From IMG/VR virus record IMGVR_UViG_3300021085_000100, positions 1 to 35,517 of that record: 35,517 nucleotides of DNA; one strand, 5' to 3'. Position 1 is the first letter of the stretch. Every line of letters starts with the position of its first letter. The stretch comes from a virus. Below are positions 27,431-35,517 of this stretch, one piece after another. Position numbers and translations under genes: made by a program. Below the pieces are notes generated by a model. It was not told the DNA's origin, ran no database searches, and saw only the letters and a program-made list of their open reading frames with translations.

Positions 27431-27654
27431 ACATATATTTAGAGGCACAAAGCTACTGTTTATCAAAAGGTGTTAAAATATACATTGTACCTATTAAAGG
27501 TAAAAAAGAATGTTTTTTGGAAGTTGACAACAATGGTCAAATTATAAAATCGCCTATAAGTTACAAAGATCAAAAAGTTGCTTCTGACAAAATTTGGGAT
27601 TTATATTTACATTTGTATAAAAAATTAAAAAATGATAAAAACAGTAAACATTAA
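27427..27654 (+). CDS. Hypothetical protein, 75 aa
   Basis: No family is recognised. The protein has an N-terminal helix (IYLEAQSYCLSKG), a beta segment with GKKECFLEVDNNGQI and a Lys-rich C-terminal helix. It overlaps both neighbours (4 nt and 23 nt), so it belongs to the same transcript as the modification genes. Confidence 0.68.
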   Translation: MNIYLEAQSYCLSKGVKIYIVPIKGKKECFLEVDNNGQIIKSPISYKDQKVASDKIWDLYLHLYKKLKNDKNSKH

Positions 27655-28222
27655 AGAAATTAAAGAAAATTCTGAAAATCCTAGGTTTATCAAGGATCAT
27701 AAATTTAAAAAATTAGTACAATCATTAAAAGATTTTCCTGAGATGTTAGAAAAGCGTCCAATGGTTGTAGATGAAAATATGGTTGTGCTTGGCGGGAACA
27801 TGAGATTAAAAGCTTGTAAACACGCCGGGTTTAAAAAAGTACACATAATTATAGCTAAAAACTGGACCGAAGAACAAAAACGTCAATTTATAATTAAAGA
27901 CAATGTTTCATATGGTGAATGGGATTATGATATTTTGGCTAATGTTTGGGATAATCAACAATTAATTGATTGGGGTTTAGATTTACCGAAATGGGATAAT
28001 GATATTGAATTTGAAGTTGGAAATGACAATGAACTTGAATTTGAATACCCGGACGAAATAAAAGATTCACATGTAAAAATGGTACAACTTTTTTTGACTA
28101 CTGAAACCGAACCACAGTTGAGAAAAATGGAACTTGAATTGAGAGGTCTGTTACAAACAGATAATTTAACAGATAGTATATTTGAAGCAATAAAAAAATT
28201 ATACAATGATAACAGAGCATAA
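27632..28222 (+). CDS. ParB-like protein linked to DNA modification
   Basis: The N-terminal 100 residues are a ParB/sulfiredoxin-like domain: MIKTVNIKEIKENSENPR, DFPEMLEKRPMVVDENM, the LGGNMRLKACKHAG motif (GGNMR at 54-58) and then EEQKRQFIIKDNVSYGEWDYDIL. In phages this domain is often fused to or encoded beside DNA methylases and other base-modifying enzymes. Here no methylase domain is fused; residues 130-196 are an acidic linker and a helical end. It overlaps the TET/JBP gene by 17 nt. It may recognise DNA or nucleotide for the pathway. Confidence 0.85.
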   Translation: MIKTVNIKEIKENSENPRFIKDHKFKKLVQSLKDFPEMLEKRPMVVDENMVVLGGNMRLKACKHAGFKKVHIIIAKNWTEEQKRQFIIKDNVSYGEWDYDILANVWDNQQLIDWGLDLPKWDNDIEFEVGNDNELEFEYPDEIKDSHVKMVQLFLTTETEPQLRKMELELRGLLQTDNLTDSIFEAIKKLYNDNRA

Positions 28223-29099
28223 TGTAATGCCTAAAATGTCTGATAAAGAAGCTAATAAATTGGCTGGCAAGCTTTTAGGCGAAAAAGATTACAATTTATT
28301 GATTAATTATGATGCTGATGTAATATGTCAAGAAACTGGGAACGTAATTGCGAAATTTAGAAAAAACATAATCCCGGGGAACATAGCAAAAGCTGGTTTT
28401 GAAAATTTAAAAACAGCAGCTAAACATACAAATAACAGAGGTGTTAGCAGTGGAGATGTTGAGATTGATATTTTGAAAAGACGTCCAGTAAAAAAAGACG
28501 GTACAATGTCAAATACTAATAAAGCGTTACAGAAGGTTAACAGTGGTATTATAGGTTTTTTCGATCGCAATGCTAGATTTCCATATTGTCGTCAAACAGC
28601 TTTTAACGAACACGAATTTAAAAAATTTAAAAAAGCATATCCAATTATAAAATTCGTTGATAAAACTTACTCTGAATTAATGCCGGATCATTACAAGCTC
28701 CAAAGACAAATAGCTGACGAAACCTCCCCTGATTTCGTTATACCTGATACAGCGTTTACAACTGTCACAGTAAATAAAAATTGGCAAACAGCCGTACACA
28801 CAGATAAAGGCGATTTTCAAAAAGGTTTTGGGAATCTAGTTGTGTTAAGGAAAGGCAGATACACAGGAGGTTATTTTGTTGTTCCTAAATGGGGAGTGGC
28901 TTTTGATATACAGAACTGTGATTTATTACTGGTAGACGTACACCAGTGGCACGGCAATACACCTATAAATAAAATAGATGAAGAAGCTACAAGAATTTCA
29001 TTAGTAATGTATTACAGGGAAAAAATGATTTCTTGTGGTAGTGCTAAAGAAGAACTTAACATTGCTAAAAATAGATCTAGAGGCCAAAAAATTTACTAA
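28206..29099 (+). CDS. TET/JBP-family 2-oxoglutarate/Fe(II) dioxygenase acting on DNA bases
   Basis: The C-terminal half has the double-stranded beta-helix signature of TET/JBP enzymes: VTVNKNWQTAVHTDKGDF (His198-x-Asp200), FGNLVVLRKGRYTGGYFVVPKWG, then VDVHQWHGNTPI (His249, or His246, as third iron ligand) and TRISLVMYYREKM with Arg263 for 2-oxoglutarate. The segment RFPYCRQTAFNEHEF before it is also typical. It should oxidise the methyl group of 5-methylcytosine or thymine in DNA. An ATG at 28227, 4 bp after the upstream stop, is an alternative start that loses seven residues. The residue numbers use the start at 28206. Confidence 0.86.
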   Translation: MITEHNVMPKMSDKEANKLAGKLLGEKDYNLLINYDADVICQETGNVIAKFRKNIIPGNIAKAGFENLKTAAKHTNNRGVSSGDVEIDILKRRPVKKDGTMSNTNKALQKVNSGIIGFFDRNARFPYCRQTAFNEHEFKKFKKAYPIIKFVDKTYSELMPDHYKLQRQIADETSPDFVIPDTAFTTVTVNKNWQTAVHTDKGDFQKGFGNLVVLRKGRYTGGYFVVPKWGVAFDIQNCDLLLVDVHQWHGNTPINKIDEEATRISLVMYYREKMISCGSAKEELNIAKNRSRGQKIY

Positions 29100-29710
29100 T
29101 GTGTGGAATTATTGGTTACAGCTCGAAAAATCCTACTGAGGAACATTTTAACATTTTACAAAAATTAATTTTACAATCAAAAATAAGAGGTTTACACAGC
29201 TTTGGTTTTAGTTATGTAAAAAACGGATTAAAAACTGTAAAAAAAACTGACGTTACTGATATTAAATTACCAATGGTAAATAAATTAATATTTCACAATA
29301 GATACTCTACAAGCGGTGATTATAAAATCGAAAAAAACAATCAACCTATTATATCAGAAAATAATACAGTTGTGTTTAATGGGGTTCTTGATATGAGCTC
29401 AAAATTAGAAATGGAAAAAAAATACAATGTAAAGATGAACACTGAAAATGACGGCGAATTAATAAGCTTATTATGTGGAATTGATAAAGAAAAAATAAAA
29501 GATTTTATTACAACTACCTCCGGGAGCATAGCCGGTATGCAATTAACAGAAGAAAATAAACTGTATTTATTTAGAAATGAAAACCGGCCCGCATGGATTT
29601 TAAAACATATAAACGCAATATTTATAGCATCTACAAAAGACATTTTTAAAAGAGTTGATGCAAGCTACAACCCGGAACTTGTTGCACCATACAAAATTTA
29701 TGAGCTATAA
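29099..29710 (+). CDS. Class II glutamine amidotransferase (Ntn type), stand-alone
   Basis: The protein starts MCGIIGYSS, so Met removal exposes the nucleophile Cys2. The glutaminase pocket residues are present: Arg68 in FHNRYSTSGD, Asn94-Gly95 in FNGVLD for the oxyanion hole, and Asp118 in ENDGELI. At 203 residues it contains only the glutaminase domain, with no synthetase partner domain. It must therefore pass ammonia, or an acyl group, to another protein, most likely an enzyme of the neighbouring modification genes. It shares a base with the TET/JBP gene and overlaps the next by 11 nt. Confidence 0.86.
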   Translation: MCGIIGYSSKNPTEEHFNILQKLILQSKIRGLHSFGFSYVKNGLKTVKKTDVTDIKLPMVNKLIFHNRYSTSGDYKIEKNNQPIISENNTVVFNGVLDMSSKLEMEKKYNVKMNTENDGELISLLCGIDKEKIKDFITTTSGSIAGMQLTEENKLYLFRNENRPAWILKHINAIFIASTKDIFKRVDASYNPELVAPYKIYEL

Positions 29711-30575
29711 TTACATAGATTATCACATAAAATCATCAAAGGCAAAAGACATTGACCCGAGCAACGATTGTTTAAAATATATTTCAGACAGATTTGAGCT
29801 CAATATTGAACAAAGATATTGGCTTGCTTTTTTATATGGCACTTGTTATTCAGCTACAACAGTATATTATATGTACAATGAATTTCCAGATTACGAAAAC
29901 GTCAATGTAAATAGATTAGAAAAATGGTGGAATAAAAACAAGCATAAAACTATATTTCAAACAGATCGATTAAGAATTAAATCATCAAATAAATTTGTAG
30001 AAAGTTTTGTGAGTTATAAAAATATGATAGGCGATATGACACAAGCTGATTTTTTTTCGAGTTTAAAACAACCGACATCACAGATGACTTATGATAATTG
30101 TTTTACTAAACTAAATGAAATTAAAAATTTCGGACGCTTTACGCTTTTTATATATATAGAAATGATAAATGTTTTGACTAACTACGATTTAAAACCCACT
30201 TTTTTGGACCTTAGGCAAGCCGAGAGCTGCCGAAACGGTTTAGTTGAGTATTTAGACAAAAAAGAATTATACACGCATAAAAACGACAGAAAATTGTCTA
30301 AAAATCAATTTAATTATTTACAATATGAATTTAGACGATTAATGGAAAAAATTAACGATTATGATATACAACACAAAAATATATGGAATGTTGAAACAAC
30401 TTTATGCGCTTATAAAAAATATAAATTAGGTAAAAGATACATTGGATATTACATTGAAAGGCAAAAAAAAGAAATAATAAAAATTCAAAATCTAGTAAAA
30501 GACGGTGTTGACTGGGACGTCTTGTGGGATTTTAGAGTAGAAAACTATGATAAAAAATGGCTAACAGAATACTAG
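29700..30575 (+). CDS. Alpha-glutamyl/putrescinyl-thymine pyrophosphorylase-like DNA transferase
   Basis: The protein resembles aGPT-PPlase (amino acid:DNA transferase) enzymes that attach amines to activated hydroxymethylpyrimidines. Motifs by residue (start 29700): FLYGTCYSATTVY 44-56, FQTDRLRIKS 86-95, KNFGRFTLFIYIEM 142-155, ESCRNGL 175-181, TLCAYKK 234-240, KRYIGYYIERQ 245-255 and DGVDWDVLWDFR 268-279. The ATG at 29700 is preferred to an in-frame TTG at 29655 because the extra residues are unlike the family and would overlap the amidotransferase far more. The expected substrate is a pyrophosphorylated base in DNA made by the kinase encoded next. Confidence 0.78.
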   Translation: MSYNYIDYHIKSSKAKDIDPSNDCLKYISDRFELNIEQRYWLAFLYGTCYSATTVYYMYNEFPDYENVNVNRLEKWWNKNKHKTIFQTDRLRIKSSNKFVESFVSYKNMIGDMTQADFFSSLKQPTSQMTYDNCFTKLNEIKNFGRFTLFIYIEMINVLTNYDLKPTFLDLRQAESCRNGLVEYLDKKELYTHKNDRKLSKNQFNYLQYEFRRLMEKINDYDIQHKNIWNVETTLCAYKKYKLGKRYIGYYIERQKKEIIKIQNLVKDGVDWDVLWDFRVENYDKKWLTEY

Positions 30576-31072
30576 CGATTGGCGGAAAACCGGCTACAGG
30601 TAAAACAACAATAATAAAAGAAATTATAAAAGCTTTTAAACCTTATGTGAAGTTTAAGTTTGGCTTAGTACGGGGAATGTATTTTGATAAACAACAATTA
30701 TATATTATAGGCATTTATGATAAATCAGTATTTAGCGGCACTGATAAACTTTCAATGGCTGTACAACCTGATTTTATTAGATTTTTAAAAAAAATAGACA
30801 ATGGTAAAATAATATTTGAAGGTGACAGATTATTTAATCAAAGCTTATTTAATAAAATTAAATGTGATATAATGGTTTTAGAAGTCAATAATGAAACAGA
30901 AAAATACAGACATAAAAAAAGAAATGACAATCAATCAGTAAAATTTATAAAATCTAAAGAAACTAAAATTGAAAATATTAAAAAAAATAATATTGTTAAA
31001 GTGTATAGAAATGACACTAAAAATGAATATAAAACGATATTAGACAAAATAAAGTATTTTTGTACTAAATAG
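30557..31072 (+). CDS. P-loop kinase, hydroxymethylpyrimidine DNA kinase-like
   Basis: The Walker A motif is GGKPATGKTT (9-18). Further motifs typical of phage 5-hydroxymethyluracil DNA kinases are VRGMYFD, LYIIGIYDKSVFSGTDKLSMAVQP in the middle and IIFEGDRLFNQSLF after it. At 171 residues it is a single-domain kinase. It should phosphorylate the hydroxymethyl group created by the dioxygenase, giving the activated base used by the transferase at 29700. It overlaps that gene by 19 nt and lies 6 bp before the terminase small subunit gene. Confidence 0.84.
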   Translation: MANRILAIGGKPATGKTTIIKEIIKAFKPYVKFKFGLVRGMYFDKQQLYIIGIYDKSVFSGTDKLSMAVQPDFIRFLKKIDNGKIIFEGDRLFNQSLFNKIKCDIMVLEVNNETEKYRHKKRNDNQSVKFIKSKETKIENIKKNNIVKVYRNDTKNEYKTILDKIKYFCTK

Positions 31073-31078
31073 ACAATA

Positions 31079-31435
31079 ATGGACACTAAACTTGCTAAAA
31101 AAGCATTTATTGACGCTTATACGAAAACGTTTGGAAACGTTACTATGTCTTGTAACAGGACCGGGATAGCTCGAAGCACATATTATAATTGGATTAATAA
31201 TGACGACGAATTCAATGAAAAAATAAATAACATTGAACCCAAAGAGTTATTTTTAGATTTCGTCACAAGTAAGCTTGTAGAAAAAATAAATGAAGGTGAT
31301 AAAGCTTCGATCATATTTGCTCTAAAAACCATTGGAAAAGAAAGAGGTTGGGTTGAAAGACAAGAAATACAACACGAAGCAAATCCACCCGAAAACCTAT
31401 TAATTGAATGGACGCCAGCAACAGAAAAAGATTAA
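31079..31435 (+). CDS. terS: Terminase small subunit
   Basis: The N-terminal 50 residues form a helix-turn-helix (KKAFIDAYTKTFGNVTMSCNRTGIARSTYYNWINNDDEF), as in phBC6A51-type terminase small subunits. Residues 58-90 are a helical oligomerisation region (LFLDFVTSKLVEKINEGDKASIIFALKTIGKERGW), and the C-terminus reaches the large subunit. It recognises phage DNA for packaging. It overlaps the large subunit gene by 28 nt. If the genomic DNA is hypermodified, this protein must bind modified DNA. Confidence 0.88.
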   Translation: MDTKLAKKAFIDAYTKTFGNVTMSCNRTGIARSTYYNWINNDDEFNEKINNIEPKELFLDFVTSKLVEKINEGDKASIIFALKTIGKERGWVERQEIQHEANPPENLLIEWTPATEKD

Positions 31436-32586
31436 AAGAATATTGTAATAAACAATTTTATCAGGCAATAGAATCTAAACAAAGATTAAAAATTTTTCAA
31501 GGCGGTACTCGGTCCGGGAAAAGTTGGTCATTGATGCAATATTGTTTATATAGAATGTCAGTGGAAAAAGATCCGCTAACTATATCCATTGTAAGAAAAA
31601 CACTTCCGGCCCTTAAAAGATCTGTATTAAGAGATTTTTTACACATAAGTAAACAATTAGGAATTTATTGGCTAGGTAAACATAACAGATCAGATAACAC
31701 ATTTACATATAACGGGCATACACTGGAAATGTTTAGTGCTGACGATGCTCAAAAAATAAGGGGATCCGCTCGTGATATATTATGGATTAATGAAGGCAAT
31801 GAGCTTTATTTTGAAGATTATCAACAGTTAGCAATGAGAACTAGGAATGAAATTTTAATTGATTTCAACCCTTCGGACCCAATACATTTTTTATATGATC
31901 TATCAGAGCGTGATGATGCTGATTTATTTATTAGCACATATAAGGATAATAAATTTTTACCACAAGAATTAATTGATGAGATTGAAAGAATACGGGACCG
32001 GGATCCTGATTATTGGAGGGTTTACGGTGAAGGACAAAGGGCCATATTTAGCAACAGGCAGATATTTACTAATTGGAAATACATACCACATATTGAGTTC
32101 CCGGAATTTAATGAAACAGCACTGGGCATAGATTTTGGTTACTCGAATGATCCCGCAGTGGTTTTACAAGTTGGAAAAGTTGGCGATAAATTATATGTAC
32201 ACGAATGGTTATATAAAAAGGGAATGACTAACCGGGATCTAGCGGAGTTTTTAAAAAACAATAAATTAAATGATATTTTAATGTATTGTGATAGCGCTGA
32301 ACCTAAATCAATAGAAGAATTGAGACAGATGGATTGCTTGGCTAAACCGTCAATCAAAGGTCAGGGATCAATCAATGCCGGTATAAGTTTAGTAAAAGAA
32401 TTTGAAGTTATTATATCCAATGAGAGTAAAAACATAAAAAAAGAACAATTAACGTATTTTTGGGAAGAAATGAAAGATGGTACAATCATCAATAAACCTA
32501 TACCAAAAAACGATCATTGTATGGACGCCCTGAGGTATGTTGTTTACAGTAGATATAAAAACAGATATGATTTTTTCGTCATATAA
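31408..32586 (+). CDS. terL: Terminase large subunit
   Basis: The ATPase has Walker A GGTRSGKS (32-39) and a Walker B-like strand DILWINEGNE with Glu129. The C-terminal RNase H-like nuclease carries acidic residues in LGIDFGYSNDPA (Asp242), MYCDSAEP (Asp295) and HCMDALRY (Asp373). The length of 392 residues is slightly short but typical for this TerL group (Terminase_3/6-like). Packaging type (pac or cos) cannot be read from this sequence; the closed circle without a large direct repeat leaves both open. Confidence 0.95.
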   Translation: MDASNRKRLKEYCNKQFYQAIESKQRLKIFQGGTRSGKSWSLMQYCLYRMSVEKDPLTISIVRKTLPALKRSVLRDFLHISKQLGIYWLGKHNRSDNTFTYNGHTLEMFSADDAQKIRGSARDILWINEGNELYFEDYQQLAMRTRNEILIDFNPSDPIHFLYDLSERDDADLFISTYKDNKFLPQELIDEIERIRDRDPDYWRVYGEGQRAIFSNRQIFTNWKYIPHIEFPEFNETALGIDFGYSNDPAVVLQVGKVGDKLYVHEWLYKKGMTNRDLAEFLKNNKLNDILMYCDSAEPKSIEELRQMDCLAKPSIKGQGSINAGISLVKEFEVIISNESKNIKKEQLTYFWEEMKDGTIINKPIPKNDHCMDALRYVVYSRYKNRYDFFVI

Positions 32587-35332: not shown

Positions 35333-35517
35333 ATGGATTTTCTATACAAAGCGTCACCGCTAGGTGAATTAACAGATTACGATGAAAAAAATTCTATTGT
35401 AAAAGGTTACGGATCATATTTCAATAATCAAGACAGTGACGGCGATATAATAAGAAGGGGCGCATACAGAAAGACGATTGAGGAAAATGGCTACAGAGTT
35501 AAATATTTGAAATATGA
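35333..35517 (+). CDS. HK97-type prohead protease (5' part; continues at base 1)
   Basis: The ATG at 35333 opens the protease gene whose main part is at 1-624. Its 17 codons before the repeat encode MDFLYKASPLGELTDYD; from 35384 the sequence equals the left end and continues in the same frame, including GSYFNNQDSDGD near residues 27-38 and the RRGAY segment typical of the family. The last eight bases (35510-35517) differ from 127-134, so the last two codons here are not the ones in the left copy. They are either an assembly-edge error or real variation in the phage population. Confidence 0.9.
   Translation, partial: MDFLYKASPLGELTDYDEKNSIVKGYGSYFNNQDSDGDIIRRGAYRKTIEENGYRVKYLKY
35384..35509. 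repeat. Right copy of the 126-bp terminal overlap
   Basis: This is identical to bases 1-126. The repeat sits inside a gene and has no special structure, which fits an assembler overlap better than a biological terminal repeat. Confidence 0.95.

Follow-up and report, generated by a model that had tools for sequence, protein, structure and literature searches.

The thymidine hypermodification pathways known so far belong to large phages, which rebuild their nucleotide pool and start the modification ahead of replication. In Pseudomonas phage M6 (5-NedU) and Salmonella phage ViI (5-NeOmdU), a kinase and then a transferase of the aGPT-PPlase superfamily, or amino acid:DNA transferase (ADDT), act on 5-hydroxymethyl-deoxyuridine (5-hydroxymethyl-dU) in DNA; the M6 kinase acts ahead of amine transfer (PMC6449724), and M6-like phages that have the transferase invariably encode a homologue of thymidylate synthase as well (PMC9599517). 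The Pseudomonas phages PaMx11 and Ab18 are associated with N-alpha-glycinyl-thymidine and 5-aminomethyl-dU (PDB 8z2m, 8z2n and 8z2o), which the PaMx11 enzyme pair makes in this order, according to the title of Wen et al. 2024 as cited in PMC11946847. The DNA analysed here, the 35,517-base window, is the whole of the IMG/VR virus record IMGVR_UViG_3300021085_000100; at positions 27632-31072, directly upstream of the terminase genes, it carries five overlapping genes, two of which, for a TET-type enzyme and a glutamine amidotransferase, take the places that different enzymes hold in other phages. An original prediction, made from the letters alone, had placed such a set of genes there, and the coordinates of the open reading frames (ORFs) bear it out, with overlaps of 17, 1, 11 and 19 bases between successive genes:

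27632..28222, + strand: ParB/Srx-like N-domain protein, 196 aa (ParB_N 4.5e-5, just under the cut-off)
28206..29099, + strand: TET/JBP 2-oxoglutarate/Fe(II) dioxygenase (TET), 297 aa (Tet_JBP 1.5e-28)
29099..29710, + strand: stand-alone class II glutamine amidotransferase (Ntn) domain (GAT), 203 aa (GATase_6, fold, catalytic residues)
29700..30575, + strand: ADDT, aGPT-PPlase superfamily, 291 aa from the ATG at 29700 (PF18724 profile, fold)
30557..31072, + strand: P-loop kinase (KIN), 171 aa (Walker A, profile matches)

For the ADDT gene, the TTG at 29655 that opens the listed ORF was rejected as the start in favour of the ATG at 29700, both because of the overlap and because the conserved relatives start there.

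The cassette is real and conserved, and it probably represents a variant of the thymidine hypermodification known from phages. It shares with PaMx11 and Ab18 a P-loop kinase, here a putative DNA kinase, and a transferase of the same fold, and many relatives of the window also have an acetyltransferase and some, such as L009 and L010, a flavin-dependent lyase; however, in the window TET replaces the thymidylate-synthase-like hydroxymethylase of deoxyuridine monophosphate (dUMP), GAT replaces the flavin lyase, and the ADDT is of the ViI-like branch. The succession of kinase and ADDT recalls M6 and ViI, but these are larger phages, make hydroxymethyl-dUMP before replication and use pyridoxal phosphate (PLP) or radical SAM enzymes, not a GAT. 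As proposed here, a phage-encoded TET/JBP enzyme makes the hydroxymethyl handle in DNA in the phage TET/C5-methyltransferase/glycosyltransferase system, whereas the window has neither a C5-methyltransferase nor a TET-associated glycosyltransferase. If the window TET acts on thymine, kinetoplastid base J is a further parallel, since there, too, TET/JBP hydroxylates thymine in DNA and a second modification follows, which is glucosylation in base J and would be phosphorylation plus amination here. As regards nitrogen, a GAT domain provides it to phage DNA base modification in the Gat-QueC archaeosine pathway of phage 9g (PMC6884629), where it is fused to QueC and the product is a 7-deazaguanine made via preQ0, whereas a stand-alone GAT would here serve a pyrimidine; PurF and GlmS have a class II GAT domain whose catalytic residues are those of the window GAT, and they resemble the transfer of ammonia to a phosphorylated acceptor proposed here, but they have a fused synthase domain and small-molecule substrates. 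No pathway with exactly this gene set is described in the literature examined, in agreement with the original prediction, and the exact set may already have been predicted in earlier work. Iyer reportedly proposed in 2013 that TET-generated hydroxymethyl bases are starting points for further modification, and Lee is said to have found, in 2022, many gene permutations in viral metagenomes.

Scans with TET, ADDT, GAT and KIN as queries gave 120 distinct contigs, in which the commonest order is ParB-TET-GAT-GNAT-ADDT-KIN and the second ParB-TET-GAT-ADDT-KIN; the gene order is kept in about 100 contigs, across diverse phages. Moreover, same-strand partners were counted at the 49 ADDT loci whose flanks extend 2.5 kb or more in each direction, and GAT and TET were each found beside ADDT at 47 of them, KIN at 46 and ParB at 43. 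Since partner genes recur at 43-47 of the 49 loci, their grouping is not due to chance. The dN/dS values, obtained against one close relative, are below 0.2 for all five genes, which are under purifying selection. Of all pairs of cassette proteins, GAT and ADDT have the highest distance correlation (r 0.91, n 57), a value that shared descent inflates. Gene content, order, conservation, catalytic residues, folds and swaps were established directly in this work. The five genes almost certainly represent a DNA hypermodification cassette, which seems to be common in environmental phages and, if the scheme given below is correct, would write a base yet to be characterised.

The five family assignments of the original prediction hold, even though profile searches brought only TET and ADDT above the cut-off and left GATase_6 (for the window protein alone), ParB_N and the P-loop kinase models below it. 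Support from the family models is strong for TET and ADDT, moderate for ParB and GAT, and weak for the kinase. The Tet_JBP profile scores 99.5 bits on the window TET (cut-off 34.9), and the motifs that had been read from the letters are real: in 33 sequences, H198 and D200 of the H-x-D motif and R263 are invariant, and the distal H249 is nearly so (at least 90%). The protein aligns with the HxD and His/Arg motifs of TET2, with only weak TET2 matches among solved structures, and it is proposed to hydroxylate the 5-methyl group of a pyrimidine in DNA. The TET residues did not decide the substrate base, D203, the counterpart of the Asn in the HRDxHN motif of TET2, being common to TETs of glycosyltransferase and ADDT contexts. 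The ParB-like protein matches phage ParB-like families down to 6e-26; its gene precedes TET in most relatives, and it is possibly a DNA-targeting or nucleoside triphosphate-binding partner. In Pelagibacter phage HTVC112P (L003:5363-7582) a ParB-TET pair is followed by an FkbM-type methyltransferase, without ADDT; hence, ParB seems to be tied to TET and not to the amination step.

Class II GATs have an N-terminal catalytic Cys, an Arg and an Asp that bind the amino acid head of glutamine, and an Asn-Gly oxyanion hole. In the 47 aligned GATs the catalytic C2, R68, N94, G95 and D118 are invariant, so that the Cys, Arg, Asn and Asp singled out by the original prediction are real; all 47 match GATase_6, the best at 5e-14, the window protein alone reaching 1.2e-4, below the cut-off. 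AlphaFold models were made for GAT and ADDT. That of GAT (pLDDT 93.8) matches, among solved structures, the glutaminase domain of GlmS (Z 21.1), PurF (Z 20.9) and EgtC (Z 18.3). A fused synthase domain such as that of PurF, GlmS or AsnB is absent, the 203-aa protein ending with the GAT domain. By analogy, GAT is proposed to supply glutamine-derived nitrogen. The GATs of LUZ24-like phages were rejected as members of the same system, being fused and having RimK- and UPF0131-like genes as neighbours; in phage LUZ24 (gp19-gp22, L020:5001-8174) a 510-aa GAT protein lies near RimK-like and UPF0131 proteins.

The ADDT matches PF18724 at 8e-17, with 62 bits against a cut-off of 26.2. Among PDB structures, its model (pLDDT 96.5) finds a single clear relative, the all-helical PaMx11 5-phosphomethyl-dU glycinyltransferase (8z2m, 8z2n), and it matches 8z2n over 255 of 291 residues (Z 19.4, rmsd 3.3). 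A profile-profile match to M6/PaMx11-type transferases, including M6 gp51, has an E value of 9e-11, and the DxDP and ExET-LC motifs are common to both; the nearest sequences are those of ViI-like transferases (E 1e-34 to a Vibrio phage D506 protein). Fold and profile matches thus place ADDT in a superfamily acting on phosphomethyl-dU in DNA, and we propose that it transfers nitrogen to the phosphomethyl base.

KIN has a Walker A motif (GKPATGKT) and the motifs FEGDR and RHxxRxDxQ. Curated P-loop kinase models match it weakly, below their cut-offs; the KIN profile aligned with hhalign to M6 gp54 gives a probability of 94 (E 2e-7), and to Ab18 ORF12 an E value of 4e-6. It is proposed to be a 5-hydroxymethyl-pyrimidine DNA kinase. 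Both M6 gp54 and Ab18 ORF12 are annotated as "terminase small subunit" in their records, a label that hypermodification DNA kinases also bear in PHROG phrog_800 and in gp114 of Caulobacter phage Cr30; the mislabelling is probably explained by the adjacency of kinase and terminase genes. Within 9 kb (L021:1653-10546), Cr30 harbors TET, an ADDT-like protein, TAGT, an inositol-1-phosphate synthase and this kinase of the same type.

An exchange of parts among relatives bears on the roles of GAT and ADDT. In L009 and L010 the genes upstream of the cassette share 60-79% identity with those of the window, and ParB, TET and KIN 56-76%; GAT is absent, and ADDT is replaced by a distant, glycinyltransferase-like type (26% identity to the window ADDT) that matches the solved amino acid:DNA transferases of the PDB (E 2.5e-14), the gene after it matching the solved flavin-dependent lyase (profile E 1e-29). 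Throughout the 120 contigs, GAT (84 contigs) and the flavin lyase (eight) never occur on one contig (Fisher p 4e-5, ignoring relatedness). Since GAT and ADDT were swapped, in one lineage, for a glycinyltransferase-like ADDT and a flavin lyase, the simplest inference would be that GAT and ADDT reach an amine equivalent to that of the flavin lyase route; the swap is a ready-made comparison for the role of GAT. The window cassette contains no flavin lyase and no tailoring enzyme of the PLP or radical SAM kind, and the flavin lyase was found only in relatives of the L009/L010 type. A GNAT acetyltransferase is present in 55 of the 84 GAT contigs; the order in phage Ab18 is ADDT, flavin lyase, acetyltransferase, kinase and thymidylate-synthase-like gene, TET replacing the last in the relatives of the window. 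The occurrence of GNAT with GAT, as with the flavin lyase in Ab18, fits an amine that is acylated later.

The dUMP hydroxymethylase profile (PF00303) had no match in the window and 30 other viral records, Ab18 being positive, and that of the C5-cytosine methyltransferase (PF00145) none in the window. Thymine already carries the 5-methyl group that TET needs. For these reasons thymine is favoured, and the modified base is probably thymine rather than cytosine. With TET in place of the dUMP hydroxymethylase, every step could take place on DNA that has already been replicated; a post-replicative start fits the large ORFs of the window, among which no DNA polymerase was noticed.

We infer the TET hydroxylation, the kinase phosphorylation, the displacement of phosphate on the base and glutamine as the nitrogen source, in the following scheme. 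TET would hydroxylate a pyrimidine of existing phage DNA, likeliest thymine, at its 5-methyl group, giving 5-hydroxymethyl-dU and dispensing with a hydroxymethylated nucleotide pool; the ParB-like protein may guide it to DNA. KIN, by homology, would phosphorylate the hydroxymethyl group, and ADDT would displace the phosphate with a nitrogen nucleophile that GAT provides from glutamine, leaving on the base an amine such as 5-aminomethyl-dU, which in most relatives a GNAT enzyme would acylate. The modification would probably protect phage DNA from host nucleases. This succession of oxidation, phosphorylation and amine transfer, in which the amidotransferase deals with the nitrogen, is that of the original prediction. 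It is the best reading, and both the fold of ADDT, with its match to the glycinyltransferase, and the natural exchange of parts strengthen it; taken in full, with all steps on replicated DNA, we give it an even chance of being right. That glutamine-derived nitrogen is placed on the base is favoured by a small margin, on the analogy of PurF, whose GAT domain frees ammonia that displaces a phosphate group. A more specific and less probable version would see in GAT and ADDT a split PurF-like DNA amidotransferase: once TET has hydroxylated thymine in place, ammonia released from glutamine would take the place of the phosphate on 5-phosphomethyl-dU in double-stranded DNA and so give 5-aminomethyl-dU directly.

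If this scheme is correct, TET/JBP enzymes open amine chemistry on DNA besides glycosylation. Genes for a polymerase or for nucleotide metabolism are not obvious in this 35 kb phage, and it seems to modify finished DNA starting from TET, which would be a fully post-replicative route from thymine to aminomethyl-uracil, requiring neither a modified nucleotide pool nor a phage DNA polymerase. The potentially surprising step would be a glutamine amidotransferase acting on a DNA base, and a glutamine-dependent aminating pair would be useful for placing a reactive amine in DNA.

Several points weigh against the scheme. All of its enzymatic steps are predicted ones; GAT stands alone, lacking both a synthase domain and a proven channel, and the distance correlations between cassette proteins are inflated by shared descent. 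The TET-less cassettes of L097 and L203 show no hydroxymethyl source. The remaining points concern the nature of the group transferred and that of the base, and each corresponds to a different explanation.

Regarding the former, it is conceivable, though less likely than not, that ADDT joins an entire amino acid (glycine, serine, glutamine or glutamate) to the phosphomethyl base, like the enzymes of M6, PaMx11 and ViI, and that GAT comes in later or at a different atom, whether as an EgtC-like hydrolase trimming a gamma-glutamyl amide or by giving ammonia to amidate a carboxylate. The solved homologues of ADDT are indeed amino acid:DNA transferases, and that of the cassette resembles the ViI-like transferases, which attach serine, more closely than the glycine type; moreover, EgtC, a hydrolase of the GAT fold, is a good structural match, and L171 and L177 have an amidoligase-like ORF beside GAT. 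Nevertheless, GAT is closer to the ammonia-donating GlmS and PurF (Z about 21) than to EgtC, and it stands in for a flavin lyase, the relatives of which leave the amine bare; the window lacks a ligase that could perform the amidation, and side-chain amides are poor nucleophiles, which makes a gamma-glutamyl adduct chemically awkward.

Somewhat less probable is that the same chemistry takes place on cytosine, TET oxidising 5-methylcytosine made by the host or by an undetected methyltransferase and the later enzymes acting on 5-hydroxymethylcytosine. Characterised phage TETs act on 5-methylcytosine, in C5-cytosine hypermodification with C5-methyltransferases and glycosyltransferases (PMC12730594, in its summary of Burke 2021), and D203 of the window TET aligns with an Asn of TET2; host methylation could supply the 5-methylcytosine. 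On the other hand, C5-methyltransferase matches are confined to partial ones in three of the 31 viral records, all in relatives, the TET-associated glycosyltransferase (PF20691) was found neither in the window nor in the four relatives tested (P12024L and L016 being positive), and the relatives of KIN and ADDT all come from thymidine pathways. Finally, it is very improbable that the targets of the five proteins are nucleotides, RNA or protein instead of DNA bases, or that the genes are unconnected occupants of a moron locus: GAT-containing clusters with no DNA-modification partners do exist (LUZ24-like phages) and the activities of the cassette proteins are predicted ones, but the TET/JBP and ADDT families act on DNA, and the gene order of the set is preserved in diverse phages, with parts swapped for pathway-equivalent ones.

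Concerning the genome, its first 126 bases are repeated exactly at 35384..35509 (+ strand), which suggests a circular assembly; the genome is thus probably circular and nearly complete, so that gene absences carry weight. Family searches revealed capsid, tail, ERF, primase-helicase and terminase genes, the last being neighbours of the cassette and outside the pathway:

31079..31435, + strand: terminase small subunit (weak terminase small subunit family matches)
31408..32586, + strand: terminase large subunit (Terminase_3 2.4e-20)

The large terminase is nearest to those of Parabacteroides and Bacteroides phages (37-38% identity), and the nearest cultured relatives infect Bacteroidota; the host therefore likely belongs to Bacteroidota, although this is unproven. 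A search of genome contigs for a prophage with a named host gave a single relative, L203, in an uncultured Prevotella metagenome-assembled genome.

Different cassette arrangements were observed among the other contigs. L203 (4866-8854) and L097 (6346-11164, a 41 kb record) have GAT-ADDT-KIN with neither TET nor a nearby thymidylate synthase; the metagenome-assembled genome of L203 has a single thymidylate synthase, away from the cassette, and in L097 a radical SAM and TAGT fusion adjoins the kinase. Nonlabens phage P12024L (L002:7920-9545) and L016 (5974-8446) harbor TET and the TET-associated glycosyltransferase, and neither record gave a match to a C5-cytosine methyltransferase; their DNA possibly contains a base-J-like glucosylated hydroxymethyluracil. 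TET, glycinyltransferase-like ADDT, flavin-dependent lyase and kinase occur together in L009 (5095-6593), L010 (5060-6558), L148 and L151-L157, sets that are probably a TET-started route to 5-aminomethyl-dU; L145 and L146 have the glycinyltransferase-like ADDT and lack the flavin lyase. The amidoligase-like ORF of L171 (4268-5125) and L177 (4663-5535), located between GAT and GNAT, suggests a further, amide-forming variant of the cassette. Lastly, in L167 (2821-3558), L168, L170, L172, L173, L174 and L176 the place of GAT, between TET and a longer ADDT, is taken by a 246-aa protein that has a Rossmann-like EYFAGxG motif but matches no Pfam family; it may be a tailoring enzyme resembling methyltransferases.

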